Shown: piece after piece, positions 34,102-47,963 of the stretch
Layout of the letters: each line of letters opens with the position of its first letter
Position numbering within the stretch: position 1 is the stretch's first letter
Source of the DNA: Hoeflea sp.
GTDB taxonomy: Bacteria > Pseudomonadota > Alphaproteobacteria > Rhizobiales > Rhizobiaceae
Assembly (NCBI RefSeq): GCF_002733955.1
Contig: NZ_NVXQ01000001.1
Location: forward strand, 310,001-374,000
Length of the DNA stretch: 64,000 nucleotides
Direction of reading: 5' to 3'
Program-made: the position numbers and the translations under genes
The notes under the pieces: generated by a model
The model's database searches: none
The model's input: the letters and a program-made list of their open reading frames with translations, nothing else
What the model was told of the DNA's origin: nothing

Positions 34102-37100
34102 ATGTCGATTCTGGCAAGCGTCCACCATCTGACCCATTACAAATACGACCGTCCGGTCACACTCGGCCCGCAGGTCATACGGCTCAGGCCGGCGCCGCAC
34201 AGCCGCACGCGGGTGGTGTCCCACTCGCTCAAGGTCAGCCCGGAAAAGCACTTCGTCAATTATCAGCAGGACCCCTACGGCAACTGGCTGGCGCGCTACG
34301 TGTTTCCCGACCCGGTGATGGAATTCAAGATCGAGGTCGACCTGGTCGCTGACATGACGGTCTACAATCCGTTTGATTTCTTCGTCGAGGAATCAGCTGA
34401 GAAATGGCCGTTCAGCTACCCCGAGGAGATCGCCCCCGACCTGGTGATCTACAAGTCGCCGGAGCCCGCAGGGCCGCGGCTGCAGGCCTTCATGGACAGC
34501 ATACCGCGCGATGAAACCGGCACCGTCGATTTCGTTGTCGGCCTCAATGCCCGTCTGGCCAACGAGATTGGTTACGTTATCCGCATGGAGCCCGGCGTCC
34601 AGACGCCGGAGGAAACCTTCGAGACCGGCAAGGGCTCCTGCCGTGACACCAGCTGGCTGCTGGTGCAGGTCCTCAGGCACCTTGGTTTCGCCGCGCGCTT
34701 CGTGTCAGGCTACCTGATCCAGCTCAAGCCCGATCTGGTGGCACTTGATGGCCCCGCCGGCACCGATCATGATTTTACCGATCTGCATGCCTGGGCCGAG
34801 GTCTATCTTCCCGGCGCCGGCTGGATCGGTCTCGACCCGACATCCGGGCTGCTCACCGGCGAGAGCCATATTCCGCTGGCCGCAACCCCGCATTACCGCA
34901 ATGCGGCACCGATTTCCGGGCTCGCCAGCTATGCCGAGGTCGATTTCGCCTTCGACATGCGCGTCGACCGGATGGCCGAGCATCCCCGCATCACCAAGCC
35001 TTTCAACGAGGAATCCTGGGCCGCACTCGATGCGCTCGGGCAGGACATCGACGCAAAGCTCGAGGCTGGCGATGTCCGGCTGACGATGGGCGGCGAACCG
35101 ACCTTCGTCTCGATCGATGATTTCGAGAGCGAGGAATGGAACACCGCAGCCGTCGGGCCACAAAAACGCGAGGCTGCCGACAAGCTGATCCGCAGGCTGC
35201 GCAACCGCTTCGCGCCGGGCGGCTTCCTGCATTACGGGCAGGGCAAGTGGTATCCCGGTGAAACACTGCCGCGCTGGACCTTTTCGCTCTATTGGCGCCG
35301 CGACGGCAAGCCGATCTGGAACAATCCCGAACTCATTGCAGACGAGGGCAAGGATACCGGGCAGGCCACGCCCGAAACTGCGAAGCAGCTTCTGGCCGGC
35401 ATTGCCGACAATCTCGGCATTGCCGATGATCATGTCGTCCCGGCCTATGAGGACCCGGCGGAATGGATCGTCAAGGAAGGCAATCTTCCCGACAACGTCA
35501 CGCCCGAAAACTCCAAGCTTGAAGATGCCGAGGAGCGTCATCGCATCGCCACCGTGTTTTCCCGCGGTCTGGCAACGCCATCGGGTTTCGTGCTGCCGGT
35601 GCAGCGCTGGCAGTCGAAGGCGGCCGGGCACGGCTGGCGCTCGGAGAAATGGAAAACCCGTCGCGGCCATGTCTTCCTGGTTCCCGGCGACAGCCCTGTC
35701 GGCTATCGCCTGCCGCTCGGCTCGCTGCCGCATGTGCCGGCCTCGTCCTATCCCTTTGTCAATCCCTCCGATCCGACGGATCCCAAGGGCGACCTGCCGG
35801 ATCCGGCGACCAAGGCGCTCAAGGATGCACTGGCCGATTCCCGTGCAGCCGATGCCGCATCTCAGCCGCGCGCCCAGTTTACTGCCGCCGAGGCGACCCA
35901 GCAGCAGGTCGAACAGACCATCAGCGATCTCGACGGTGCGGTTCGCACCGCAATTTCCGTTGAACCGCGCGACGGCCGCCTGTGCGTGTTCATGCCGCCG
36001 GTCGAAAAGGTGGAGGACTATCTCGAACTGGTCTCCGCGGCCGAAGTCGCAGCCGACCGGCTCGGCCTCAAGGTCCACATCGAGGGTTACGGGCCGCCGC
36101 ATGATCCGCGCCTCAACGTCATCCGGGTGGCACCCGATCCAGGCGTCATCGAAGTCAATGTCCACCCGGCAGCCAGCTGGGAGGAATGCAAGGCCATCAC
36201 CGAAGGGGTTTACGAAGAGGCGCGCCAGACCCGTCTCGGCGCCGACAAGTTCATGATCGATGGGCGCCACACCGGCACCGGCGGCGGCAATCACGTGGTC
36301 GTCGGCGGCGCAACACCGCTCGACAGCCCATTCCTCAGGCGTCCCGACCTGCTCGCCAGCCTGATCCTGCACTGGCAGCGCCACCCAAGCCTGTCCTATC
36401 TGTTTTCGGGCCTGTTCATCGGTCCCACCAGCCAGGCGCCACGCATCGATGAAGCCCGCCATGACGGGCTCTACGAGCTCGAAATGGCGCTCGAGCAGAT
36501 CCCCCATCCTGAAGCCGGGACGCCGCCGCTGCCATGGCTCGTCGACCGGCTTCTGCGCAACCTGCTGACCGACGTGACCGGCAACACCCACCGCGCCGAA
36601 ATCTGCATCGACAAGCTCTACTCGCCCGACGGGCCGACGGGCCGCCTCGGCCTGGTCGAGTTCCGCGGCTTCGAAATGCCGCCCGAACCGCGCATGAGCC
36701 TGGCCCAGCAGGTGCTGATCCGCGCCCTCATCGCCCGCTTCTGGCAAAACCCGGCCAAGGGGCGCTTCACCCGCTGGGGCACGGCGCTCAACGACCGTTT
36801 CATGCTGCCGCATTTCATCTGGGAGGATTTCCTCGACGTCTTGCGCGACCTGCGCGATCACGGCTTCGACCTGCGCTCGGAATGGTACGAAGCCCAGGCC
36901 GAGTTCCGCTTTCCGTTCTGCGGTGAGGTCACCTATGAAGGCGTTCGCCTCGAACTGCGCCAGGCGCTCGAGCCCTGGCACGTGCTCGGCGAGACCGGAG
37001 CCATCGGCGGCACCGTGCGCTACACCGACAGTTCGGTCGAACGGCTCCAGGTCAAGCTCGAAACCGCGGATCCGTCACGCTACATGGTAACCTGCAACGG

Positions 37101-37458
37101 CCGCCCGGTGCCGCTGGCCGCCACCGGCAAGGCCGGAGCCTCCGTTGGTGCAGTCCGCTACAAGGCTTGGCAACCGGCCCTGGCGCTGCATCCGGTTCTG
37201 CCGGTCGATGCACCGCTGACCTTCGATGTTTTCGACACGTGGTCCGGCAAGCCGCTCGGCGGGTGTGTCTACCACGTCGCCCATCCCGGCGGCCGCAGCT
37301 ACGATACGTTCCCGGTCAATGGCAATGAGGCCGAGGCGCGGCGGCTGGCCCGGTTCGAGCATCGCGGCCACACACCCGGAGCCGGCATGCCCACGCCCGA
37401 GACGCCGCACCCGGAATTTCCCTTCACCCTCGACTTGCGTCGCAAGCCGGGGATCTGA
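34102..37458 (+). CDS. Transglutaminase-like protein fused to DUF2126 putative amidoligase
   Basis: An 1118-residue cytoplasmic protein. The N-terminal bacterial transglutaminase-like beta domain (about 1-100) starts [20 protein letters not shown]. The papain-like transglutaminase core has catalytic C180 ([10 protein letters not shown]), H229 ([12 protein letters not shown]) and D245 (GLDPTSG). The remaining 800 residues are DUF2126, described as a putative amidoligase related to glutamine synthetase-like folds, with [17 protein letters not shown] and [15 protein letters not shown] 34102 is the start that fits the domain; an upstream open extension to 34009 adds nothing. The downstream gene starts 3 bases after the stop. 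Predicted (Iyer, Aravind and colleagues, 2009) to take part in peptide synthesis or protein modification; no reaction is established. Confidence 0.9.
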
Positions 37459-37461
37459 TCG

Positions 37462-39861
37462 GTGCCCGAGTCAGCAGCGATCCGGAACCCGGATCGTCCC
37501 TCGATACTGGCGGGCTACGCCACCGTGCCGGACGTTCCGGATGAACTGGTGCGCGAGGACGGCAGTGTCAGGCCGGAATGGCTCAGCCTGATCGCCCATC
37601 TCGACAGGCTGAGCGCGGACGAGCGTGAACGGGCTTTCGCCCGGGGTGCGCAATATCTGCGCGATGCCGGCGTTTTTGTTCGCCATTACGGGGAAGAAAA
37701 CAATCCCCGCGACTGGCCACTCAGTCCGGTCCCGGTGATCCAGCCTGCCAGCGAATGGCAGGCTCTGGGCACGGCACTGGCGGAACGCGCCGACCTGCTC
37801 GAAGCGGTGGTGGCGGATCTTTATGGCGAAAACCGGCTGGTCAGCGAGGGCCATCTGCCCGCCAGCCTCATTGCTTCCAACCCGGAATGGTTGCGCCCGC
37901 TGGTGGGCGTGAAGCCGGCTTCCGGGCATTTCCTGCATTTCCTGGCCTTTGAGATTGGCCGTGGACCCGACGGCGCTTGGTGGGTCCTGGGCGACCGCAC
38001 CCAGGCGCCTTCGGGCGCTGGCTATGCGCTGGAAAACCGGGTTGCCTCGGTGCGTGCCTTTCCCGGTTTCTACAGCGGCTCCAATGTAGAGCGGCTTGTG
38101 AGCTTCTTTCGCGGCTTCCGCGACGGTCTTAACGGGATGCGCCATGAGGATGGCAGCCGGGCAGGGATCCTGACGCCGGGTCCGATGAACGAAACCTATT
38201 TCGAGCACGCCTATATCGCCCGCTATCTCGGCATGATGCTGCTTGAGGGTGACGATCTGGTTGTCGATGACGGCAAGCTGATGGTGCGCACCGTCTCCGG
38301 CCCTAAACCCATCAGTGTGTTGTGGCGCCGGATGGATGCGGCCTGGTCCGATCCGCTGGAGCTCGAGGCAAACTCGCGTCTGGGCACACCCGGCCTGCTC
38401 GGCGCGGTCCGGTCTCAGGGCGTAACCATGATCAATGCGCTTGGTACGGGCATTCTTGAAAGCCGCGCCTTTCTTGCCTTCATGCCACGCCTGTCGGAAA
38501 TCCTGCACGGCAAGAAGCTGAGCATCCCCAATGTCGCAACCTGGTGGTGCGGCAGCGAGGCCGAGCGTGATCATGTGCGCGCCCATGCCGGGGACATGAT
38601 GATCGGCTCGGCCCATTCCACGCGTCTTCCGCTGGAGCCCGAACCTGGTGCTGTGCTGAGGGGAGAGATGTCCGAAATCGGGCTCGATCTCGATACATGG
38701 CTGGCCCGCGAGGGCCGCAACCTGGTGGGCCAGGAACTGGTGTCACTGTCGACAACGCCGACCTGGGAAGAGGGGCAGCTCAAGCCCAGGCCGATGCGGA
38801 TTCGTGTCTTCATGGCGCGCACCCCAGGTGGCTGGCAGCTGATGCCCGGCGGCTTTGCCCGCTTGGCCGCCTCCGGTCAGGATCCCTCGGCGGTCTCGCT
38901 GCGAAGCGGCGGCACAGTGGCCGATGTCTGGGTCGTTTCCGACAAGCCGGTGCCTGAAGATACCATGCTCAGCCATGCTGACGAGGTGTTCGTCCGGTCA
39001 GCGCCGGGTCTGCTGCCAAGCCGGGCCGCCGACAACCTGTTCTGGCTGGGCCGCTATGTCGAGCGTGCCGAAGGGCAGATGCGTCTGATCAGGGCCCATA
39101 TGAGCAGACTGCCGGAAACGCCCGCCGGCGGCACTCCGCTGATGACCCGGCTTGAAACCTATCTCGACAAGCATGGTCTCGACAGTGACGAAGCCGTGCC
39201 CGCTGCTCTCGAACAAACCATCGCCGCCGCCGTCAACGCCGCCAGCCAGGTCCGCGACCGGTTTTCGGTTGATGCCTGGGCTTCGTTGGCCGATCTGGAG
39301 AGAACTGTTGGCAACATGCGCAAGACCGTTGTGCGCGGCGATGATGCAGCCTCGGCAATGGGCGTTTTGCTGCGCAAGATCACCGGGTTTTCCGGCCTCG
39401 TGCATGAAAACATGTACCGCTTCAGCGGCTGGCGGTTCCTGACCATCGGCCGCTCGCTCGAGCGCGCCATCGCCATGGCGGATCTGCTCGGCACGTTTGC
39501 GGAATGGTCTGGCCCGCATGGCGGGTTTGAACTCTGTGTCGAGGTCGGCGACAGCGTCATGAGCCACCGCAGGCGTTATCCCGTGACGGCCAGCCGCGAG
39601 ACCGTGGTTGACCTGCTGGCACTTGACCCGCTCAATCCGCGCTCGATCGCCTTTCATATCGATGAGATCCGGGATCAGGTCAGCCTGTTGCCCGGCGCGG
39701 ATGTGAACGGACAGCTGTCCGAGCTGTCGAGAGCGGTTTTGCGCATCCAGGCCGATCTGTCCGTGCACACGCCACAGAGCCTGGATCAAGCCAAACTGAC
39801 GGAGCTGGGGCAGACCATCGGTCTGCTGACCAATGACCTTCATGCCCAGTTTCTGGAGTGA
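37462..39861 (+). CDS. Fused circularly permuted ATP-grasp enzyme and alpha-E domain protein
   Basis: A 799-residue fusion. Residues about 20-500 are the circularly permuted ATP-grasp type 2 domain (COG2308), with VVADLYGENRLVSEGHLPAS, GRGPDGAWWVLGDRTQAPSG, EGDDLVVDDGKLMVR and IPNVATWWCGSE. Residues about 515-799 are the helical alpha-E domain (COG2307): SRAADNLFWLGRYVERAEGQ, then RFLTIGRSLERAIAMADLL. In many bacteria these are two separate proteins. The ATP-grasp part is expected to activate a carboxylate with ATP and form an amide; the alpha-E role is unknown. It starts at GTG 37462 and overlaps the next open frame. Confidence 0.9.
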   Translation: MPESAAIRNPDRPSILAGYATVPDVPDELVREDGSVRPEWLSLIAHLDRLSADERERAFARGAQYLRDAGVFVRHYGEENNPRDWPLSPVPVIQPASEWQALGTALAERADLLEAVVADLYGENRLVSEGHLPASLIASNPEWLRPLVGVKPASGHFLHFLAFEIGRGPDGAWWVLGDRTQAPSGAGYALENRVASVRAFPGFYSGSNVERLVSFFRGFRDGLNGMRHEDGSRAGILTPGPMNETYFEHAYIARYLGMMLLEGDDLVVDDGKLMVRTVSGPKPISVLWRRMDAAWSDPLELEANSRLGTPGLLGAVRSQGVTMINALGTGILESRAFLAFMPRLSEILHGKKLSIPNVATWWCGSEAERDHVRAHAGDMMIGSAHSTRLPLEPEPGAVLRGEMSEIGLDLDTWLAREGRNLVGQELVSLSTTPTWEEGQLKPRPMRIRVFMARTPGGWQLMPGGFARLAASGQDPSAVSLRSGGTVADVWVVSDKPVPEDTMLSHADEVFVRSAPGLLPSRAADNLFWLGRYVERAEGQMRLIRAHMSRLPETPAGGTPLMTRLETYLDKHGLDSDEAVPAALEQTIAAAVNAASQVRDRFSVDAWASLADLERTVGNMRKTVVRGDDAASAMGVLLRKITGFSGLVHENMYRFSGWRFLTIGRSLERAIAMADLLGTFAEWSGPHGGFELCVEVGDSVMSHRRRYPVTASRETVVDLLALDPLNPRSIAFHIDEIRDQVSLLPGADVNGQLSELSRAVLRIQADLSVHTPQSLDQAKLTELGQTIGLLTNDLHAQFLE

Positions 39862-39866
39862 GAGCG

Positions 39867-40748
39867 ATGCTCTACGACATCAAGCTGGTGATCGACTACA
39901 CGTTTCAATCCCCTGCGGCGGGTGCGCGCCAGACCCTGCACGCCATGCCGATGACCATTGCCGGGCGCCAGCGTCTGATTGCGGGCAGCGTCAAGGTCGA
40001 TCCAGAACCTGCCACGCGCCGGGACCGGGACGATTTTTTCGGCAACCGGCTCACTGAACTGGCCTTCAACGAACCGCACAGCAACATCGAGATCACGCTC
40101 AAGGCGAGGGTGGAGGTCACAGGCGGTGCCGAGCCTCGGACAGCCTCGGTTGAGCTTCAGGAACTGGCCCGATCGCTTGAAGCCGAGACGGATCTGGGTG
40201 CGCGCTCGCCGCTTCATTTCCTTGCAGCCTCGCCCTATACCCGGCCGGATCAGGCAATCGCGCAGTGGGCCCGTGCTCTGGTATCTGACGCTCAAGCCTG
40301 CGCCGACATCGTTGCTGTTCTGGGCCGGGCGCTGCACGATGAGATGCGCTTTGACGCGGAAGCGACCACCGTCGAGACGCCGGCGGCGGAAGCTTTTGCC
40401 GCCCGTCACGGCGTCTGTCAGGACTTTACCCACATCATGATCATTGCGCTCAGGAGCCTGGGCATTCCTGCAGGCTATGTCAGCGGTTATCTGCGCACTT
40501 TGCCGCCGCCCGGACAGGAGCGGCTGGAAGGCGCTGATGCCATGCATGCATGGGTGTCCGCGTGGTGCGGGCCCGGCGTCGGTTGGGTCGAATATGATCC
40601 GACCAACGCCACCTTCGCAGGCACCGACCACATCGTCGTCGCCTATGGCCGGGATTACGCCGATGTCGCGCCGGTGCGGGGCGCCATGCGTATCGCGGGC
40701 GCGCAGACCAGCAATCAATCCGTGGATGTCGCGCCAGTCGGCGAGTAG
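39867..40748 (+). CDS. Transglutaminase-like cysteine protease-fold protein
   Basis: A 293-residue protein of COG1305: an N-terminal beta domain (MLYDIKLVIDYTFQSPA) and a papain-like core with C184 (RHGVCQDFTHI), H227 (DAMHAWVSAW) and D244 (VEYDPTNATF). No signal peptide is visible. ATG 39867 has GGAG ten bases upstream; GTG 39858 inside the previous gene is an alternative that would give overlap. It completes a three-gene unit and could act as a peptidase or acyl-transferase on the product of the amidoligase steps. The stop lies 13 bases from the convergent oligopeptide transporter operon. Confidence 0.9.
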   Translation: MLYDIKLVIDYTFQSPAAGARQTLHAMPMTIAGRQRLIAGSVKVDPEPATRRDRDDFFGNRLTELAFNEPHSNIEITLKARVEVTGGAEPRTASVELQELARSLEAETDLGARSPLHFLAASPYTRPDQAIAQWARALVSDAQACADIVAVLGRALHDEMRFDAEATTVETPAAEAFAARHGVCQDFTHIMIIALRSLGIPAGYVSGYLRTLPPPGQERLEGADAMHAWVSAWCGPGVGWVEYDPTNATFAGTDHIVVAYGRDYADVAPVRGAMRIAGAQTSNQSVDVAPVGE

Positions 40749-40761
40749 GTAAGGCGTTCGC

Positions 40762-41679
40762 TCAGCGTCCGCGGATGCGCGGGTCGAGCGCGTCGCGCAA
40801 CCCGTCCCCGATATAGTTGACGCTCAGCACGGTCAGCGAAATCGCCAGACCTGGCCAGAACACTCGTTCCGGGTACTGCTGCAGGTAATCGATCGCGTCA
40901 AACAGCAGCCGGCCCCAGGTCGGAAAATCCGGCGGGAAGCCGAGCCCGAGGAACGACAACGCCGACTCGGTGATGATCGCCGTCGCAATCCCGAGCGTCG
41001 CCGAGACCATGATCGGAGAGAGCACGTTGGGCAGGATGTGGCGCAGGATCATGCGCCGTGATGGCGTTCCGATCGACCGTGCCGCGAGCACGAATTCGCG
41101 TTCCTTCAGCGCCAGCACCTCGCCGCGCACGATGCGCGCGGTCTGCATCCAGCTGGTGATGCCGATGGCCGAGACGATCAGGATGAAGGTGCCCATTTCC
41201 GGGCCGAAGCTGCGCGACAGGGTTTCGCGGAACAGCATCACCATGACCAGCAGCAGCGGCAACAACGGCAGCGCCAGGAACAGGTCGGTCAGCCCCATCA
41301 GCACACCGTCGAGCCTGCGGAAGAAACCCGAAACGACACCGATCAGGGTCCCCAGCAGCACGCTGATCGCCATGGCGGTCAGGCCGACGGCGATCGACAC
41401 CTGTCCACCCGCCATCATCCGCGCCATGATATCGCGGCCCAGCTGATCGGTGCCGAAAGGATGTGCCAGAGACGGGCCCGAGTTTCGCGCCCTGATGTCG
41501 ATGAATGTCGGTTCGATGGTCCACACCAGCGGGCCGAGGGTCACCGCCAGAACGATGAACAGGAACACGGCAGCACCGAACAGCGCGCCCTTGTGGGTCT
41601 TGAACTGATCCCAGACATCCCACCATTGCGACCGCGCGGAGGTGTCCTTGGCAACAGGCTCGAGAGGCGTGTCAGTCAT
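40762..41679 (-). CDS. Oligopeptide/dipeptide ABC transporter permease, DppC type
   Basis: A 305-residue inner-membrane permease. The N-terminal OppC-type segment WWDVWDQFKTHKGALFG precedes the first helix; HPFGTDQLGRDIMARMMAGG is the DppC family signature; the EAA loop reads EFVLAARSIGTPSRRMILRH. ATG 41679 has a GAGGA site upstream and overlaps the DppB gene end by 8 bases. It is the last gene of the five-gene minus-strand operon. Confidence 0.93.
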   Translation of the reverse strand: MTDTPLEPVAKDTSARSQWWDVWDQFKTHKGALFGAAVFLFIVLAVTLGPLVWTIEPTFIDIRARNSGPSLAHPFGTDQLGRDIMARMMAGGQVSIAVGLTAMAISVLLGTLIGVVSGFFRRLDGVLMGLTDLFLALPLLPLLLVMVMLFRETLSRSFGPEMGTFILIVSAIGITSWMQTARIVRGEVLALKEREFVLAARSIGTPSRRMILRHILPNVLSPIMVSATLGIATAIITESALSFLGLGFPPDFPTWGRLLFDAIDYLQQYPERVFWPGLAISLTVLSVNYIGDGLRDALDPRIRGR

Positions 41680-42679
41680 AGCGGATCCTCGGATCAAGCA
41701 GGCCGTACAGCACGTCGGCAATGAGATTGCACAGCACGATCAGCACCGCGAAGATGAAGGCCAGCGTCTGCACCATCGGCAGGTCATTGGCGTAGATGGC
41801 GGTGATCAGCAACTGACCCAGCCCGTTCACCTTGAAGATCTGCTCGGTGATGATGGCGCCGCCGAAGATCGACGGAACGCCGAGCGCGATCACGGTGACC
41901 ACCGGGATCATCGAGTTGCGCAGCACATGCACCAGCAGCACCACCTTCTCGGTCATGCCCTTGGCGCGCGCCGTGCGAACATAATCATGGTTGAGATTGT
42001 CGAGCATCGAGGCGCGCATGAAACGCGATAGCTGCGCGGTGGTCTGCAACGCCAGCACCATCACCGGCAAGGTCATCTGCCGGATCTGCTGGCCGAAACT
42101 CTCGAAATCATTGACCACCAGCGTGGTGTCGTAGATCGACGGGAACCACGGCAGCATGATTGCGAAGAACACGATCATCAGCACGCCCGAGAAGAACGGC
42201 GGTACCGAAAACCCGATCATCGAGACGAATGTACCGATCTGATCGAACCAGGAATATTGCTTGTAGGCCGAAATGATCCCGATCGGCAGAGCGATCAGAA
42301 CGCCGACGAGGTAGGCAAGACCGACAACCCAGAGCGTCTGCGGAATCCGCTGGATGATGATGTCGAACACCGGCGAGCGGAACTGCCACGAGACGATGCG
42401 CTGCATGCCTTCGGAGAAGTTGGTCCCAATCACCCAGTCGACGAACACCAGCGGTTCAACCCAGAAGAACTGCTTGGCCCACAAAAGGTAGCGAATATAG
42501 GCGGGGGCATCGAGGCCAAGCGCATCGCGCATCTTTTGCCGGACTTCCGGCGGGATGCTCAGCGGCTGGTTGGCCAGCGGATCGCCCGGGGCGAGATCCA
42601 AGAGCAGGAATATGATCAGACTGATGAGCACAAGCGTCGGTATCGCCAACAACAATCGTCGGAATGTAAAGGTCAGCAT
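41672..42679 (-). CDS. Oligopeptide/dipeptide ABC transporter permease, DppB type
   Basis: A 335-residue permease starting MLTFTFRRLLLAIPTLVLIS, the canonical DppB/OppB first helix. The EAA loop reads DYVRTARAKGMTEKVVLLVH and the chain ends LLDPRIRYD as usual. The insert between helices 1 and 2 is longer than in short DppB members, as in transporters with large binding proteins. It lies downstream of the binding-protein gene, separated by a UUCG hairpin. Confidence 0.93.
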   Translation of the reverse strand: MLTFTFRRLLLAIPTLVLISLIIFLLLDLAPGDPLANQPLSIPPEVRQKMRDALGLDAPAYIRYLLWAKQFFWVEPLVFVDWVIGTNFSEGMQRIVSWQFRSPVFDIIIQRIPQTLWVVGLAYLVGVLIALPIGIISAYKQYSWFDQIGTFVSMIGFSVPPFFSGVLMIVFFAIMLPWFPSIYDTTLVVNDFESFGQQIRQMTLPVMVLALQTTAQLSRFMRASMLDNLNHDYVRTARAKGMTEKVVLLVHVLRNSMIPVVTVIALGVPSIFGGAIITEQIFKVNGLGQLLITAIYANDLPMVQTLAFIFAVLIVLCNLIADVLYGLLDPRIRYD

Positions 42680-42730
42680 AGGCGACGCCTCGGTTCAGCA
42701 GTATGGCGCGGGGAAACAGCGGACAGGGGG

Positions 42731-42758
42731 GAATGGCCCCGCCGAAGCGGGACCATTC
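42731..42758 (-). repeat. UUCG-capped hairpin between binding-protein and permease genes
   Basis: On the transcribed strand the stem is GAATGG-x-CCCGC closed by a TTCG tetraloop and GCGGG-x-CCATTC, with one internal mismatch. It starts 10 bases after the binding-protein stop. The C(UUCG)G cap makes it very stable; there is no T run. Confidence 0.75.
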
Positions 42759-42768
42759 GCTGTCTGCA

Positions 42769-44469
42769 TTACTTGATGCGGTACCAGTCCGCTGCGTTCC
42801 AGATCTCGGAATCCCAGGTGTTGAGGACAACACCGCCGAGGCTGTTGGAATGAGCCGAGACGCGGCCACGATCGACCAGCGGCACGATTGTCATCGAGTC
42901 CTTGGTCAGCATATCGTTGAGCTTCTTGGCGATTTCGGCGCGCTTGGAGATTTCGCCGGTCTTGCCGAGTTCAGCCACCAGTTCGTCATAGGCCGGGTCG
43001 CAGAAGCGGTTGATGTTCTCGCCCTGCCACTGCGATGAAGGCTTGGGAGCCTTTTCGCAGGTGTACTGGCCCAGATACTGTTCCGGATCGGTGCCGTCGA
43101 AGTTGTTGGCGTACATTTCCACGTCCGCGTAGAACTTCTGGAATGTGTCCGGGGATGCCGGGTCGCCACCGAAGAACACGGAACCGTCAATGTTCTTGAG
43201 TTCGGTTTCGACACCGATGTCGGCCCACCACTGCTTGATCAACGCCTGGAAGTCCTGACGCACGGCGTTGGTCGAGGTCTGGTAGAGAAGCTTGAACTTC
43301 TTGCCGTCCTTCTCGCGGATGCCGTCGGCGCCAACGGTCCAGCCGGCTTCGTCGAGCAGGGCCTTCGCGCCTTCAACGTCCTGCGCGATGCAGTCGGTGT
43401 TGTCGGAAGCAAACAGTTCCGGCGCAGGCACCAGATTGCAGGTCGGGCGACCGGCCTGGCCGTAGCCGATTTCAACCAGCAGGGTGCGGTCGATGGCCAT
43501 CGAAAGGGCGCGACGCACTCTTTCGTCCGACAGGATCGGGTGCGGGTGCTTGGCAGTCGCGCGTTCGCCTTCCGGCAGGTCCGGCGACGGATCGGTCATG
43601 TTCATCTCGATACGCTCGACCAGCGTGCCGAAGCCGGAGATCGGCGTGCCCTTGCCGCCTTCGGCCATCTTGGCGATGACGTCGGGAGCCAGCTGCAGGT
43701 TCCAGGCGTAGTCGTATTCACCGGTTTCCAGAACCGCACGGCCGGCAGAGGCCGCGTCGCCGCCGCCCTTGAAGGTCAGTGTCGCGAATGCCGGCTTGGC
43801 TGGATCGCGGTAGTTGTCATTGGCCTTCATCGTGATCACGTCGTTCGGCTTGAAGTCGGTGACGACGAAGGGTCCGGTGCCGATCGGTCCGAAATTGGCG
43901 TCGGTGCATTCCTGCGCCTTGGCGCCAAGGCAATCCTTGAACTGGGCTGCCTGGATCAGCGGCGACTGAGCGCCGACAAAGGCTGCGTAGGGCACGGGCT
44001 TCGGTCCGGTAAAGTTCACCACGATGGTGCGCTCGTCCGGTGTCTCGACGCTTTCGACGCCGTCGAACTTGGCGCTCTGGGCGCAGCCGCCGTCCGGCGC
44101 CATGCAGTATTCGGCGGTGAACTTGGCGTCAGCCGAAGTCACCGGTGTGCCGTCGGACCACTTGAGGCCTTCCTTCAGCTTCCAGGTGATCGAGGTCAGG
44201 TCGGCTGCAACGCCGCCGTTTTCAACGGTCGGGATCTCGTCGACGAGATAGGGAACCAGCGCGCCCTTTTCATTGAAGCGTGCCAGCGGCTCGACAACGA
44301 GTGATGCTGCTTCGATGTCCTTGGTGCCGCCGGACAGATACGGGTTCATGATCGATGGCGCCTGCCAGTAGATGATCTTGACCTCGCCGTCCGAGCCGCG
44401 CTCGGCGTGCGCGACAGGTGCGATCGCCATAGCGGCGACGGCGCCCATCAGAAGTGCTTTGAGTTTCAT
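42769..44469 (-). CDS. Oligopeptide ABC transporter substrate-binding protein (family 5)
   Basis: A 566-residue periplasmic protein with signal peptide MKLKALLMGAVAAMAIAPVA (cleavage after AHA). Family 5 features: DLTSITWKLKEGLKWSDGTP near residue 95, SDERVRRALSMAIDRTLLVE and a C-terminal MLTKDSMTIVPLVDRGRVSA. ATG 44469 has AAGGAG upstream. Several cysteines in pairs (for example around FKDCLGAKAQECTD) suggest disulfides. The ligand is a peptide or peptide-like compound; it cannot be fixed from sequence. Confidence 0.92.
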   Translation of the reverse strand: MKLKALLMGAVAAMAIAPVAHAERGSDGEVKIIYWQAPSIMNPYLSGGTKDIEAASLVVEPLARFNEKGALVPYLVDEIPTVENGGVAADLTSITWKLKEGLKWSDGTPVTSADAKFTAEYCMAPDGGCAQSAKFDGVESVETPDERTIVVNFTGPKPVPYAAFVGAQSPLIQAAQFKDCLGAKAQECTDANFGPIGTGPFVVTDFKPNDVITMKANDNYRDPAKPAFATLTFKGGGDAASAGRAVLETGEYDYAWNLQLAPDVIAKMAEGGKGTPISGFGTLVERIEMNMTDPSPDLPEGERATAKHPHPILSDERVRRALSMAIDRTLLVEIGYGQAGRPTCNLVPAPELFASDNTDCIAQDVEGAKALLDEAGWTVGADGIREKDGKKFKLLYQTSTNAVRQDFQALIKQWWADIGVETELKNIDGSVFFGGDPASPDTFQKFYADVEMYANNFDGTDPEQYLGQYTCEKAPKPSSQWQGENINRFCDPAYDELVAELGKTGEISKRAEIAKKLNDMLTKDSMTIVPLVDRGRVSAHSNSLGGVVLNTWDSEIWNAADWYRIK

Positions 44470-44492
44470 GGCTGTCTCCTTGTTGATTTTTA

Positions 44493-45530
44493 TTAGTTTG
44501 TTATGTCGCCAGCGGTTGGTTCCGCGGTCGTTTGCATGCTTTCGGAATACAGATGGCAAGCCACCTGTCTTCCTTCTCCGAAGTCACGGACAGCGGGCTC
44601 GATCTGCCGGCAGATATCCATGACTTTGGGGCATCTGGTTGAGAAGTTGCAGCCCTGGGGCGGGTTGGAAGGCGAGGGCACATCGCCTTGAAGCACGATC
44701 GGCTTGCGATGCCGCTCCGATTCCGGATCTGGCTCCGGCACCGCCGAGAGCAGCGCCTGCGTATAGGGATGAAGCGGCTCGGCAAACAGCGCTTCCCGCG
44801 ACCCGACTTCGACGATTCGGCCGAGATACATCACGGCGACGCGGTCGGCGATGTGGCGCACCATCGACAGGTCGTGGCTGATGAACAGATAGGTCAGGTC
44901 CAGCCGTTCCTGCAGTTCCTCGAGCAGGTTGACCACCTGCGCCTGGATCGACACGTCGAGCGCTGCGATCGGTTCGTCGCAGACGATGAATTTGGGATTG
45001 AGAGCCAGCGCCCGGGCAATGCCGATGCGCTGCCGCTGGCCGCCCGAAAACTCGTGTGGGTAACGCTTGGCAAATTCGCGGTTGAGGCCGACCCAGTCCA
45101 TCAGTTCGTAGATCCGGGCAAGCCGTTCGTCCGAGGACAGTTTCATATGCTCGTCCAGCGGCTCTCCGATGATGCTGGCCACCGTCATCCGTGGATTGAG
45201 GCTCGCCTGCGGATCCTGGAAGATCATTTGCATCATCGGCCGCTTGGAGCGCAGGCTGTCGCGGTCGACATGAGCGATCTCGAAGCCGTTGATCTCAACG
45301 GTGCCGGCAGTGACATCGTAAAGCCGCAGGATCGAGCGTCCAACGGTTGACTTTCCGCAGCCGGATTCGCCGACCAGCCCGAGCGTCTCGCCGGGCAGGA
45401 TGTCGAAGCTGATCCCGTCAACGGCCTTGATGTCGCCGACATGGGTCCGGAACAGCCCCGCATGGATCGGGAAATACATCTTCAGATCCCGCACCTTGAC
45501 CAGCGGGGCTACAGTCTCGACTTCAGCCAT
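44493..45530 (-). CDS. Oligopeptide ABC transporter ATPase, OppF/DppF type
   Basis: A 345-residue ATPase with an N-terminal LKMYFPIHAGLFRTHVGDIK segment of the DppF type, Walker A GESGCGKST, signature FSGGQRQRIGIARA, Walker B FIVCDEPIAALD and a C-terminal oligopeptide-transporter iron-sulfur-like cysteine region (GCNFSTRCPKVMDIC). It pairs with the OppD-type ATPase, whose end it overlaps by 8 bases. Confidence 0.93.
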   Translation of the reverse strand: MAEVETVAPLVKVRDLKMYFPIHAGLFRTHVGDIKAVDGISFDILPGETLGLVGESGCGKSTVGRSILRLYDVTAGTVEINGFEIAHVDRDSLRSKRPMMQMIFQDPQASLNPRMTVASIIGEPLDEHMKLSSDERLARIYELMDWVGLNREFAKRYPHEFSGGQRQRIGIARALALNPKFIVCDEPIAALDVSIQAQVVNLLEELQERLDLTYLFISHDLSMVRHIADRVAVMYLGRIVEVGSREALFAEPLHPYTQALLSAVPEPDPESERHRKPIVLQGDVPSPSNPPQGCNFSTRCPKVMDICRQIEPAVRDFGEGRQVACHLYSESMQTTAEPTAGDITN

Positions 45531-46542
45531 TCACGGCCTCCGGCTCTGGCGTTGAGGCCTTGTCCAGCAGAAAGCATGCGGCGCGGTGGCCCGGCGCCGA
45601 CACGCTGCGCAGTTCCGGGTTTTCCTCAGAGCAGCGGTCGAACGCATACTGGCACCGGTTGCGGAACGAGCAGGCAACGGGCGCGCCATGCATGATCGGC
45701 GGCTGGCCCTCGATCACCTGAAGCTTCTCTTCGCGGGGGCCGCGCACAGCCGGCACCGTCTTGAGGAGCGCCTGGGTATAGGGATGTTGCGGATCTCTGA
45801 AGATTTCACCGACCGGCCCTTCCTCGACCACCTGACCGGCATACATCACCATCACCCTGTCGGCGATACCGGCAATGACGCCCAGATCGTGGGTGATCCA
45901 GATGATCGCCATCCCCAGCTTCTGGCGCAGTTCCTTCACCAGTTCGATGATCTGCGCCTGGATGGTGACGTCGAGCGCCGTGGTCGGCTCGTCGGCAATC
46001 AGCACCTGCGGATCGCAGGCAAGCGCAATGGCAATCATCACGCGCTGCCGCATGCCGCCGGAAAACTGGTGCGGATAATCCTTGAGCCGCCGTTCGGCGT
46101 CGGGAATGCCGACAAGCTGCAGAAGCTCGACCGACCGTGTCCTGGCTTGCGCCTTCGACATGCCCAGATGCGCGCGCAGCGGTTCTGCCAGCTGGAAGCC
46201 GATCGTGTAGACCGGATTGAGCGATGTCATCGGGTCCTGAAAGATGAACCCGATCTTGGAACCGCGTATCTTGCGCAGCTCCTCCGGACTGATCTTGAGC
46301 AGGTCCTGACCATCAAACATCACTTTTCCGTCCCGCATCTCCGCAGGCGGAGATGGCAGAAGCCGAAGCAGCGACATCATGGTCACGGATTTTCCGGATC
46401 CACTTTCCCCGACGACGCCGAGCAATTCGCCCGGGCGCAGATCGAAGTCGACGGAGTTGACCGCGTGCACTTCACCGCCGCGGGTGCGGAAAACCGTTTT
46501 AAGCCCTTTAACATCCAGAATTGGCATGGCCGTGTCTGGCAT
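45523..46542 (-). CDS. Oligopeptide ABC transporter ATPase, OppD/DppD type
   Basis: A 339-residue ATPase: Walker A GESGSGKS, signature [14 protein letters not shown], Walker [13 protein letters not shown] and the C-terminal cysteine region ([15 protein letters not shown]). ATG 46542 has GAGGGG upstream; an ATG five codons later is an alternative. First gene of the operon DppD-DppF-binding protein-DppB-DppC, divergent from the ArgE-type gene. The 257-base divergent region contains two direct copies of TTGACCA (46618-46624 and 46637-46643). Confidence 0.93.
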
Positions 46543-46799: not shown

Positions 46800-47963
46800 A
46801 TGGAAGAATATTCTAATATACGCGACATATTGGCAAAGCTGGTTTCCTATCCAACAGTCAGCCGCGACACCAATTTGCCGCTTGTCGAGTGGGTCAAAAC
46901 CTACCTTGAAAGCCATGGTATCTCATCGCACAGGGTGATGAGCCCCTGCGGCAAGAAAGCGCATCTTTATGCCCAGACCGGACCCGAGATCGATGGTGGT
47001 GTGATCCTGTCCGGTCACACCGATGTGGTTCCGGTCGACGGGCAGGCCTGGACCACCGATCCGTGGACTTTGACCGAGCGCGCCGGAAAGCTCTATGGCC
47101 GTGGCGCCTGTGACATGAAGGGTTTTGACGCGCTGGCACTGCTGGCCATGGCGCGCGCATCAAAACGCCCGCTCAAGCGTCCATTGCAACTGGCGTTCTC
47201 GTTCGACGAAGAGGTGGGCTGTGTCGCCGTTGTCGATCTGGTTGAAACCATGCGTGGAGCCTTGCCGCGCGCGCGGGAGGTCATTGTCGGCGAACCGACC
47301 ATGATGAAGGTGGTCACCGGCCACAAGGGCGGGCTTGGCTATCACGTCCATGTCCGGGGTCACGAAGTGCACTCCTCGCTGTTGCCTTATGGCGTCAGCG
47401 CCATCATGCAGGCGGCAAAACTGATCGACTGGGCCAACCTGCGCAACGCGGAAAATCAGCAGCGTGCGCCATCGGAACTCGCCGCCCCCTTCGAGCCGCC
47501 CTTCACCACGCTGCATGTCGGTCAGATCGAAGGCGGCACTGCACACAACATCACCGCCAGGGACTGCCGTTTCTTTATCGAATTTCGCTTTGTGCCCGGC
47601 GAAAGCCCCGAGGATTGGGCCGGTCTGTTCGAGGCAAAGGCAGCCGAACTGTCGGCCGAAATGCAGAAGATCCATCCCGACACGGGATTTGAGCTGAAAC
47701 GGGGATTTGCGCTTCCGGCCCTGTCGCCTGAAACCGACGGTCCGGCTGAAACGCTGGCACGCCGCTTGACCGGCGACAATGGCCAGCATGTGGTCAGCTA
47801 CGGCACCGAAGGCAGCCAGTTTCAGGTGCGCGGCTATTCCACCGTCATCTGCGGACCCGGCGATATCGCCCAGGCGCATCAGCCTGACGAGTTTCTCAGC
47901 CTCGAACAGCTTGCCGCCGGGGAGGCGTTCATCGACCGGCTGCTTGATTCGATGTGTGCGTGA
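46800..47963 (+). CDS. argE: M20-family deacylase, acetylornithine deacetylase type
   Basis: A 387-residue zinc hydrolase. Metal and catalytic residues are visible: H73 and D75 in GHTDVVPVD, D105 in GACDMKG, the EE pair E137-E138 in FSFDEEVG, E165 in VGEPT and a late histidine in AQAHQPDE. The dimerisation lid lies at about 180-290. The family match is ArgE, but paralogues of this type often hydrolyse other N-acyl amino acids or dipeptides. The position, divergent from an oligopeptide transporter and next to arginine catabolic genes, favours a catabolic deacylase over arginine biosynthesis. Confidence 0.85.
   Translation: MEEYSNIRDILAKLVSYPTVSRDTNLPLVEWVKTYLESHGISSHRVMSPCGKKAHLYAQTGPEIDGGVILSGHTDVVPVDGQAWTTDPWTLTERAGKLYGRGACDMKGFDALALLAMARASKRPLKRPLQLAFSFDEEVGCVAVVDLVETMRGALPRAREVIVGEPTMMKVVTGHKGGLGYHVHVRGHEVHSSLLPYGVSAIMQAAKLIDWANLRNAENQQRAPSELAAPFEPPFTTLHVGQIEGGTAHNITARDCRFFIEFRFVPGESPEDWAGLFEAKAAELSAEMQKIHPDTGFELKRGFALPALSPETDGPAETLARRLTGDNGQHVVSYGTEGSQFQVRGYSTVICGPGDIAQAHQPDEFLSLEQLAAGEAFIDRLLDSMCA

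Follow-up and report, generated by a model that had tools for sequence, protein, structure and literature searches.

A motif-degenerate ATP-grasp domain fused to alpha-E in a conserved DUF2126 module of Hoeflea sp.: a possible pseudo-ligase in a predicted amide-ligation system

Introduction

Which of the proteins encoded by a predicted amide-forming gene set could be the ligase? We addressed this question for a locus of Hoeflea sp., in which three tandem open reading frames (ORFs) on the forward strand occupy positions 34102–40748 of the window, i.e. the analyzed stretch of 64,000 nucleotides from contig NZ_NVXQ01000001.1 (positions 310,001–374,000). They encode protein A, a transglutaminase-like (TG) part joined to a DUF2126 domain, protein B, a circularly permuted ATP-grasp fused to an alpha-E domain, and protein C, a second, stand-alone TG-like protein. 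The original prediction, made from the DNA letters and their ORFs, had described this three-gene locus, which is confirmed here. As a locus, it represents an unremarkable case of a known, uncharacterized kind, and the surprise is the degenerate ATP-grasp inside: judged by sequence, the ATP-grasp half of protein B lacks the canonical ATP- and metal-binding parts and probably has an auxiliary role instead of acting as a ligase.

The prediction that the three families act in amide formation, with a product that is not known, agrees with the available passages of three publications (PMC6376114, PMC5666114, PMC2588565), and these also back the link of these families to the proteasome-like peptidase Anbu.

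Results

Retention of motifs was assessed in an alignment of 108 fused proteins (the window protein, 36 from fetched stretches and 71 from named loci; 37 fused proteins in an earlier round) and 21 unfused ATP-grasps, in which those columns were scored that are invariant in the unfused enzymes. The named loci are the best 80 of 593 DUF2126 alignment matches, with 61–78% identity, and the fused sample excludes Actinomycetota and Cyanobacteria. From related ligases, we assume that the ExN motif (E155, N157) binds metal and that a lysine (K363) and a Gly-Gly-Tyr-Gly loop (369–372) have ATP-related roles. ExN is found in 20/20 unfused rows with letters at this site (the 21st is cut by the end of its stretch), whereas N157 is present in 0/108, E155 in 2/108 and the complete pair in 0/108 fused proteins, the usual fused pattern being DRxQ. 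In the window protein, G177-D178-R179 occupy the ExN site and the stretch reads GDRTQAPSG. The lysine is present in 21/21 unfused but 6/108 fused proteins and is missing from the window protein, and each position of the loop is occupied as expected in 21/21 unfused but only in minorities of the fused proteins; the corresponding region of protein B reads MMIGSAHSTRLPLEPE. Other columns are retained in the fused proteins, namely P161, G163, R171, E229, D246, R270, D278, N306, R425, D463 and W465 in 106–108/108, D156 in 105/108 and S162 in 98/108.

The same picture emerged from individual proteins. The motifs are intact in the unfused enzymes of Enterobacter and Tsukamurella plasmids and of Acidithiobacillus, while ExN is gone from the fused proteins of Enterobacter, Azospirillum and Granulicella; the fused protein of the Granulicella plasmid lost ExN and the Gly-rich loop and has the lysine. 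In the established ligases Gss and YgiC of E. coli, ExN and stretches of the VKP... type are visible by eye. With neither ExN nor the Gly-rich loop in its ATP-grasp half, the fusion protein appears to be the least likely ligase.

The fused ATP-grasp is under purifying selection and is not decaying. The ratio of non-synonymous to synonymous substitution rates (dN/dS) was 0.062–0.135 for the ATP-grasp part and 0.045–0.159 for alpha-E in five close pairs, two of which give rough values with synonymous change exceeding 1. Columns specific for the fused proteins (R179, G187, E300, E333, W362 and G364) are conserved in 99–107/108, among them W362 (106/108) and G364 (107/108) of the fused-specific stretch WWCG at residues 361–364 of protein B. 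The ER motifs of alpha-E are retained in at least 106/108 fused rows. In a quick tree of 61 rows, one branch with a Shimodaira-Hasegawa-like approximate likelihood ratio test (SH-aLRT) value of 100 separates fused from unfused proteins, which is consistent with a single origin, three fused rows having very long branches.

Next to this loss stand two TGs with complete active sites. The triad Cys180-His229-Asp245 of protein A is conserved in 119/119 rows. Protein C carries the triad Cys187-His230-Asp247 (numbered from GTG 39858), and in C-type and Anbu-operon TGs Cys and His are present in 114/114 rows and Asp in 113/114, the remaining row being cut by a contig end. The claim that both TGs keep intact triads thus holds, and the loss of catalytic residues that the original prediction had named as evidence against itself is seen in the ATP-grasp half, but in neither TG, while the candidate residues of DUF2126 (E332, E684-x-N686, H731 and E853-x-R855) are invariant in 18/18 and 30/30 rows. 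The transglutaminase-like family includes cross-linking as well as hydrolyzing members. Rv2569c of M. tuberculosis, which may resemble protein C and which is reportedly termed a serine protease in one paper (PMC11081392), was given no weight.

Predicted structures were compared with known folds. The AlphaFold2 (AF2) model of protein B (predicted local distance difference test score, pLDDT, 89.1; predicted template modeling score, pTM, 0.85) matched structure 3n6x with Z 37.1 and a root-mean-square deviation (rmsd) of 3.1 over 441 residues, glutathione synthetases with Z ~20–24, YgiC/YjfC with Z ~22 (YgiC 22.1) and glutathionylspermidine synthetase/amidase (GspSA) with Z ~19; hence, the GspS/GSS-type ATP-grasp fold is present in the predicted model. 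For alpha-E, searched within the whole protein B model, no convincing fold relative emerged, the best Z values of ~10 belonging to assorted helical proteins and lying in the range that the comparison tool rates as common for helical bundles. Residues 1–294 of protein A matched the TG part of 3isr (Z 22.0, rmsd 3.1, 262 residues). In the 49 other rows listed the partner was glutamine synthetase (GS) or, by title, of GS fold (GmaS, YbdK), with Z 9.5–12.1 and rmsd 3.1–4.5 over ~200–270 residues lying mostly within residues 296–954 (YbdK 1r8g, Z 9.6). Because of these fold matches, and because the Rv2566 family was placed among the carboxylate-amine ligases in 2008, DUF2126 is likely to be GS-like. 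Profile searches with hmmsearch reached 3n6x from the ATP-grasps and two TG structures from protein A; otherwise, between DUF2126 and glutamine synthetases and between the circularly permuted ATP-grasp and E. coli Gss, they gave only weak matches at chance level, and hhalign against E. coli Gss found nothing. The links of DUF2126 to GS and of the circularly permuted ATP-grasp to Gss come from fold comparison only.

To place the locus among its relatives, 200 genomes of the phylum were searched, using for Anbu this genome's own protein as query (E up to 1e-10). DUF2126 was found in 63, alpha-E in 112 and Anbu in 68 genomes, and 35 of the 63 with DUF2126 also have Anbu. Alpha-E is present in 63/63 genomes with DUF2126 and in 49/137 others (Fisher p 2.6e-21, a value that overstates the association as the genomes are related). 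An unfused ATP-grasp, 49–100% identical to this genome's own, is likewise encoded in all 63, i.e. the sampled DUF2126 genomes all nest within those possessing the unfused paralogue. With the unfused ATP-grasp as query, a full-length fused relative (frame of at least 800 amino acids; count taken from the table of matches) was detected in 56/63 DUF2126 genomes and fragments of the fusion at contig ends in two more (G085, G153). Genes A, B and C follow each other in the order of the window in 70/80 named loci, five of the other ten breaking off at a contig end or close to one (L102, L111, L125, L126, L157), and the order is also conserved on one Acidobacteriota plasmid (Granulicella). The fusion, which had been regarded as unusual, is therefore the usual companion of DUF2126. 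With TG and DUF2126 on one chain and with the fusion and the second TG downstream in the common order, the locus is a standard "DUF2126 module" and the companion of an Anbu-type operon that this genome carries elsewhere.

Gene maps were drawn for 40 stretches, which represent 39 genomes; 38 of these stretches derive from the 63 DUF2126 genomes. The unfused ATP-grasp shares the stretch with DUF2126 in 19/38 and Anbu is present in 8/38 (L041, L046, L051, L052, L063, L074, L076, L077), directly adjoining DUF2126 in seven. In Pseudooceanicola pacificus (L086), a complete, divergently oriented Anbu operon adjoins the trio. IncFII plasmid p1_120063 of Enterobacter roggenkampii (L161:3156-12347) carries a five-gene set composed of unfused ATP-grasp, alpha-E, TG-DUF2126, fusion and TG; arsC and an IS26 transposase gene are located on the same stretch. 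Further arrangements were observed. TG-DUF2126 directly adjoins Anbu with no fusion detected in L046, L051 and L052, possibly an older or alternative arrangement. A megaplasmid of Acidithiobacillus caldus (L166:5199-13435) encodes an Anbu-like peptidase 42% identical to the Anbu of our genome, DUF2126 and the unfused ATP-grasp/alpha-E pair; this set is located near ntrC and glnL, and its DUF2126 match is in two pieces across 4.6 kb and looks interrupted. In L078:5402-11174 (G126), fusion and TG directly follow the unfused pair; no DUF2126 was found in this genome, and the fused protein has a very long branch.

The partner operon in our genome (40 contigs, 100% complete by the tool's figure) was identified because a search with protein B also matched a further ATP-grasp and a further alpha-E, both on contig C39. 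There, four separate genes code for a circularly permuted ATP-grasp, alpha-E, a TG and Anbu (L004:7355-12625). This Anbu was independently recovered with a proteasome profile and is the genome's sole match to its own Anbu, away from the trio. Hence, the reported absence of Anbu is correct for the neighborhood in the window, but not for the genome, for which the proposed check for Anbu elsewhere was positive. The weight put on the missing gene also appears too high, given the genome's own Anbu operon and the seven of 38 mapped stretches in which Anbu lies directly beside DUF2126. The trio itself is not an Anbu operon: it has no Anbu gene, and its ATP-grasp and alpha-E are fused and motif-degenerate, unlike the C39 set. 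The C39 operon directly adjoins ureG-like and ureF genes (Pfam), which suggests a nitrogen-related setting.

Pfam profiles support the families as originally named, all scores being well over the curated cut-offs. Protein A matched Bact_transglu_N, Transglut_core and DUF2126 (1331.7 bits), protein B matched CP_ATPgrasp_2 (411 bits) and Alpha-E (192 bits) on a single polypeptide, and protein C matched Bact_transglu_N and Transglut_core. A scan of NCBIfam at E 0.01 assigned no family to the three proteins. The features are listed in Table 1. The open frame of gene A begins upstream at TTG 34009, and three bases separate genes A and B. For protein C, the ATG start appears likelier than the GTG, because GGAG is located 8 bases before this ATG. 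Upstream of the trio lies a CheW-like gene. On the downstream side, an oligopeptide-type ABC transporter operon is convergent with the trio and is followed by an M20 acetylornithine-deacetylase-like gene. Among neighboring ORFs of at least 110 amino acids, the clusters that recurred comprised the trio, the unfused set with Anbu, long ORFs apparently antisense to the trio and genes that are generic or lineage-specific as read from example sequences; an oligopeptide-transporter cluster was not prominent among them, the transporter of the window not having been searched for directly. Since the Anbu operon of P. putida is nitrogen-controlled, sigma-54 promoters were sought with one consensus within up to 300 bases upstream, but none was found before the trio, the C39 set or any of the 80 named loci (0/80). 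A simple scan for a sigma-70-like site found none.

Table 1. Features of the DUF2126 module and its downstream neighbors (positions refer to the window)
Feature	Position	Strand	Description
Protein A, TG-DUF2126	34102..37458	+	1118 amino acids from ATG; AF2 model, Pfam, alignments
Protein B, ATP-grasp/alpha-E fusion	37462..39861	+	799 amino acids
Protein B, halves			circularly permuted ATP-grasp ~27-493 (motif-degenerate); Alpha-E 518-797
Protein B, degenerate (presumed) metal motif	37993..38025	+	residues 178-188 DRTQAPSGAGY; unfused (E)DNxRxPSGVSY
Protein B, lost lysine and Gly-rich loop	38599..38670	+	residues 380-403 MIGSAHSTRLPLEPEPGAVLRGEM; unfused e.g. VVKPANESGGYGMLIG
Protein C, stand-alone TG-like	39867..40748 (ATG) or 39858-40748 (GTG)	+	296 amino acids from GTG
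Transporter operon	40762-46542	-	oligopeptide-type ABC transporter
M20 gene	46800-47963	+	acetylornithine-deacetylase-like

Discussion

How might the module work? In the scheme that we propose, the DUF2126 domain of protein A would join a carboxylate to an amine with the help of ATP, forming an amide or isopeptide bond, while the papain-fold TG domain of protein A and protein C may break or transfer this bond. Protein B would represent a duplicated and fused version of the ATP-grasp/alpha-E pair, the ATP-grasp half of which is devoid of the canonical ATP/Mg motifs, and might be a pseudo-ligase that binds substrate or serves as a scaffold, its partner probably being either protein A or the unfused ATP-grasp, conceivably within a physical complex. 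We regard the chances as about even that a GS-like DUF2126 ligase, TGs acting on the amide and a pseudo-ligase scaffold together make up this companion of the Anbu-type operon. Slightly short of even, in our estimate, is the evolutionary reading that protein B is an ancient pseudo-ligase of a widespread amide-ligation system: its ATP-grasp, paralogous to the Anbu-operon enzyme, would have been fused to alpha-E, lost its ATP/Mg motifs and remained strongly selected next to a GS-like ligase, with the unfused paralogue found in 63/63 genomes and motif-complete wherever read. Such a pseudo-ligase would be a specificity or scaffold subunit or hold a new activity. If this is true, an ATP-grasp pseudo-enzyme is widely conserved in Pseudomonadota and also present on one Acidobacteriota plasmid. 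A vague "peptide system" thereby becomes assayable, with DUF2126 and the unfused ATP-grasp, rather than the fusion, as candidate users of ATP.

Several observations weigh against the pseudo-ligase scheme. Motif loss falls short of proof that activity is lost. The lysine is present in the six fused proteins noted above and in those of Azospirillum and Granulicella, so that its loss may be a later event. Completeness of the unfused motifs was read in 20–21 proteins and three more, i.e. in fewer than the 63 genomes. For DUF2126, the AF2 model of protein A is of medium quality (pLDDT 74.7), and the GS rows were preselected and of middling Z, as the comparison (VIA-align) re-examined the Foldseek top 1000; by Foldseek itself, the best GS match reached only E 0.11. 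Moreover, the invariant DUF2126 residues are candidate counterparts of GS catalytic residues, assigned by motif logic. The fusion was undetected in 5/63 DUF2126 genomes (G036, G049, G064, G076, G097), of which G049 and G097 have DUF2126 at a contig end and G036, G064 and G076 have Anbu beside DUF2126, and 5/80 named loci had no detected B or C in ~9 kb downstream (L083, L089, L123, L133, L155); therefore, DUF2126 does not strictly require protein B at its side. The hydrolase role of the TGs is suggested by analogy. Finally, the literature search turned up no assay of enzyme activity for DUF2126, alpha-E or the fusion. The searches likewise came upon no product of either the Anbu operon or the DUF2126 module, and upon no claim of inactivity for the fused ATP-grasp, a remark that might be contained in the 2009 amidoligase paper of Iyer and colleagues.

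Other explanations have to account for the same residues. All three proteins could be active enzymes. The fused ATP-grasp would then still be a ligase with altered ATP-binding residues and, acting in series with DUF2126, would produce a peptide or a peptide-polyamine. We consider this rather unlikely, as no fused protein has a complete ExN (0/108) and the Gly-rich loop is mostly lost, whereas the unfused paralogues read retain all motifs; it would fit a fold that is fully preserved in the model (3n6x, Z 37.1), D156, R171, D246, R270, D278, N306 and R425 retained in 105–108/108, strong purifying selection and the minority of fused proteins still possessing the lysine. Conservation of the fused-specific columns (99–107/108) and selection roughly equal to that on alpha-E might alternatively reflect a repurposed fold, in which a pocket made of DRxQxPSGxG and the nearly invariant WWxG (361–364) has an ATP-independent or atypical nucleotide activity. 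However, a scaffold role would give equal conservation, and repurposing seems distinctly unlikely to us. According to a published hypothesis (available passages of PMC6376114 and PMC5666114), the module would tag proteins with an amino acid or a small peptide, and the tag would be degraded or removed by Anbu. The direct adjacency of Anbu and DUF2126 in 7/38 mapped stretches is in line with this idea, but 28/63 DUF2126 genomes have no Anbu match, no tag-like neighbor was seen among ORFs of at least 110 amino acids (a shorter one would escape) and the published Anbu tests, in the passages available, were without peptidase activity (PMC6376114), leaving protein tagging a slim chance. A relic or decaying locus without a present role is hardly credible and was rejected: only the motif loss in protein B would speak for it, but dN/dS of 0.06–0.14 in relatives, intact TG triads, the conserved gene order and the copy on an Acidobacteriota plasmid contradict it.

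As regards the physiological context of the preferred pseudo-ligase scheme, the partner operon offers a hint. In P. putida grown with nitrate as compared to ammonium, the genes of Anbu and its ATP-grasp (PP_2685, PP_2688) are up 4.44 and 3.99 log2-fold according to the available part of PMC8050072. This nitrogen-dependent expression suggests a role in nitrogen storage or turnover.

Comparison with known systems

One of the closest systems is the Anbu operon, which, according to the available passages (PMC6376114, PMC5666114), comprises the same domain families and an ATP-grasp paralogous to the fused one. It differs from the trio in having four separate genes, no DUF2126, a motif-complete ATP-grasp and Anbu itself. 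Its ATP-grasp releases phosphate from ATP, while peptidase activity of Anbu was not seen (PMC6376114). The family named after Rv2566 of M. tuberculosis, recognized in 2008 as TG plus carboxylate-amine ligase (PMC2588565), has the architecture of protein A; the available passages mention neither a fused partner nor lost motifs. The rlo operon of Pseudomonas aeruginosa resembles the trio in that TG-like and ATP-grasp proteins are encoded together. However, as far as the available passages go (PMC12239564), the TG of RloB is inactive and membrane-bound, RloC is RimK-like, and alpha-E and DUF2126 are not described; with these differing domains, rlo was rejected as the same system and serves as an analogy only. 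Glutathionylspermidine synthetase/amidase, YgiC/YjfC and the glutathione synthetases share the fold of the ATP-grasp half of protein B (Z 19–24), which is devoid of the ExN and lysine/Gly-loop stretches seen in Gss and YgiC. The available part of PMC12568646 describes peptidylpolyamine synthetase function for both YgiC and YjfC. By analogy, the nearest working parallel may be glutathionylspermidine synthetase/amidase, in which the amount of an amide is governed by a ligase together with an amidase, but in the trio the probable ligase and the domain bearing Cys-His-Asp belong to families other than those of this enzyme.

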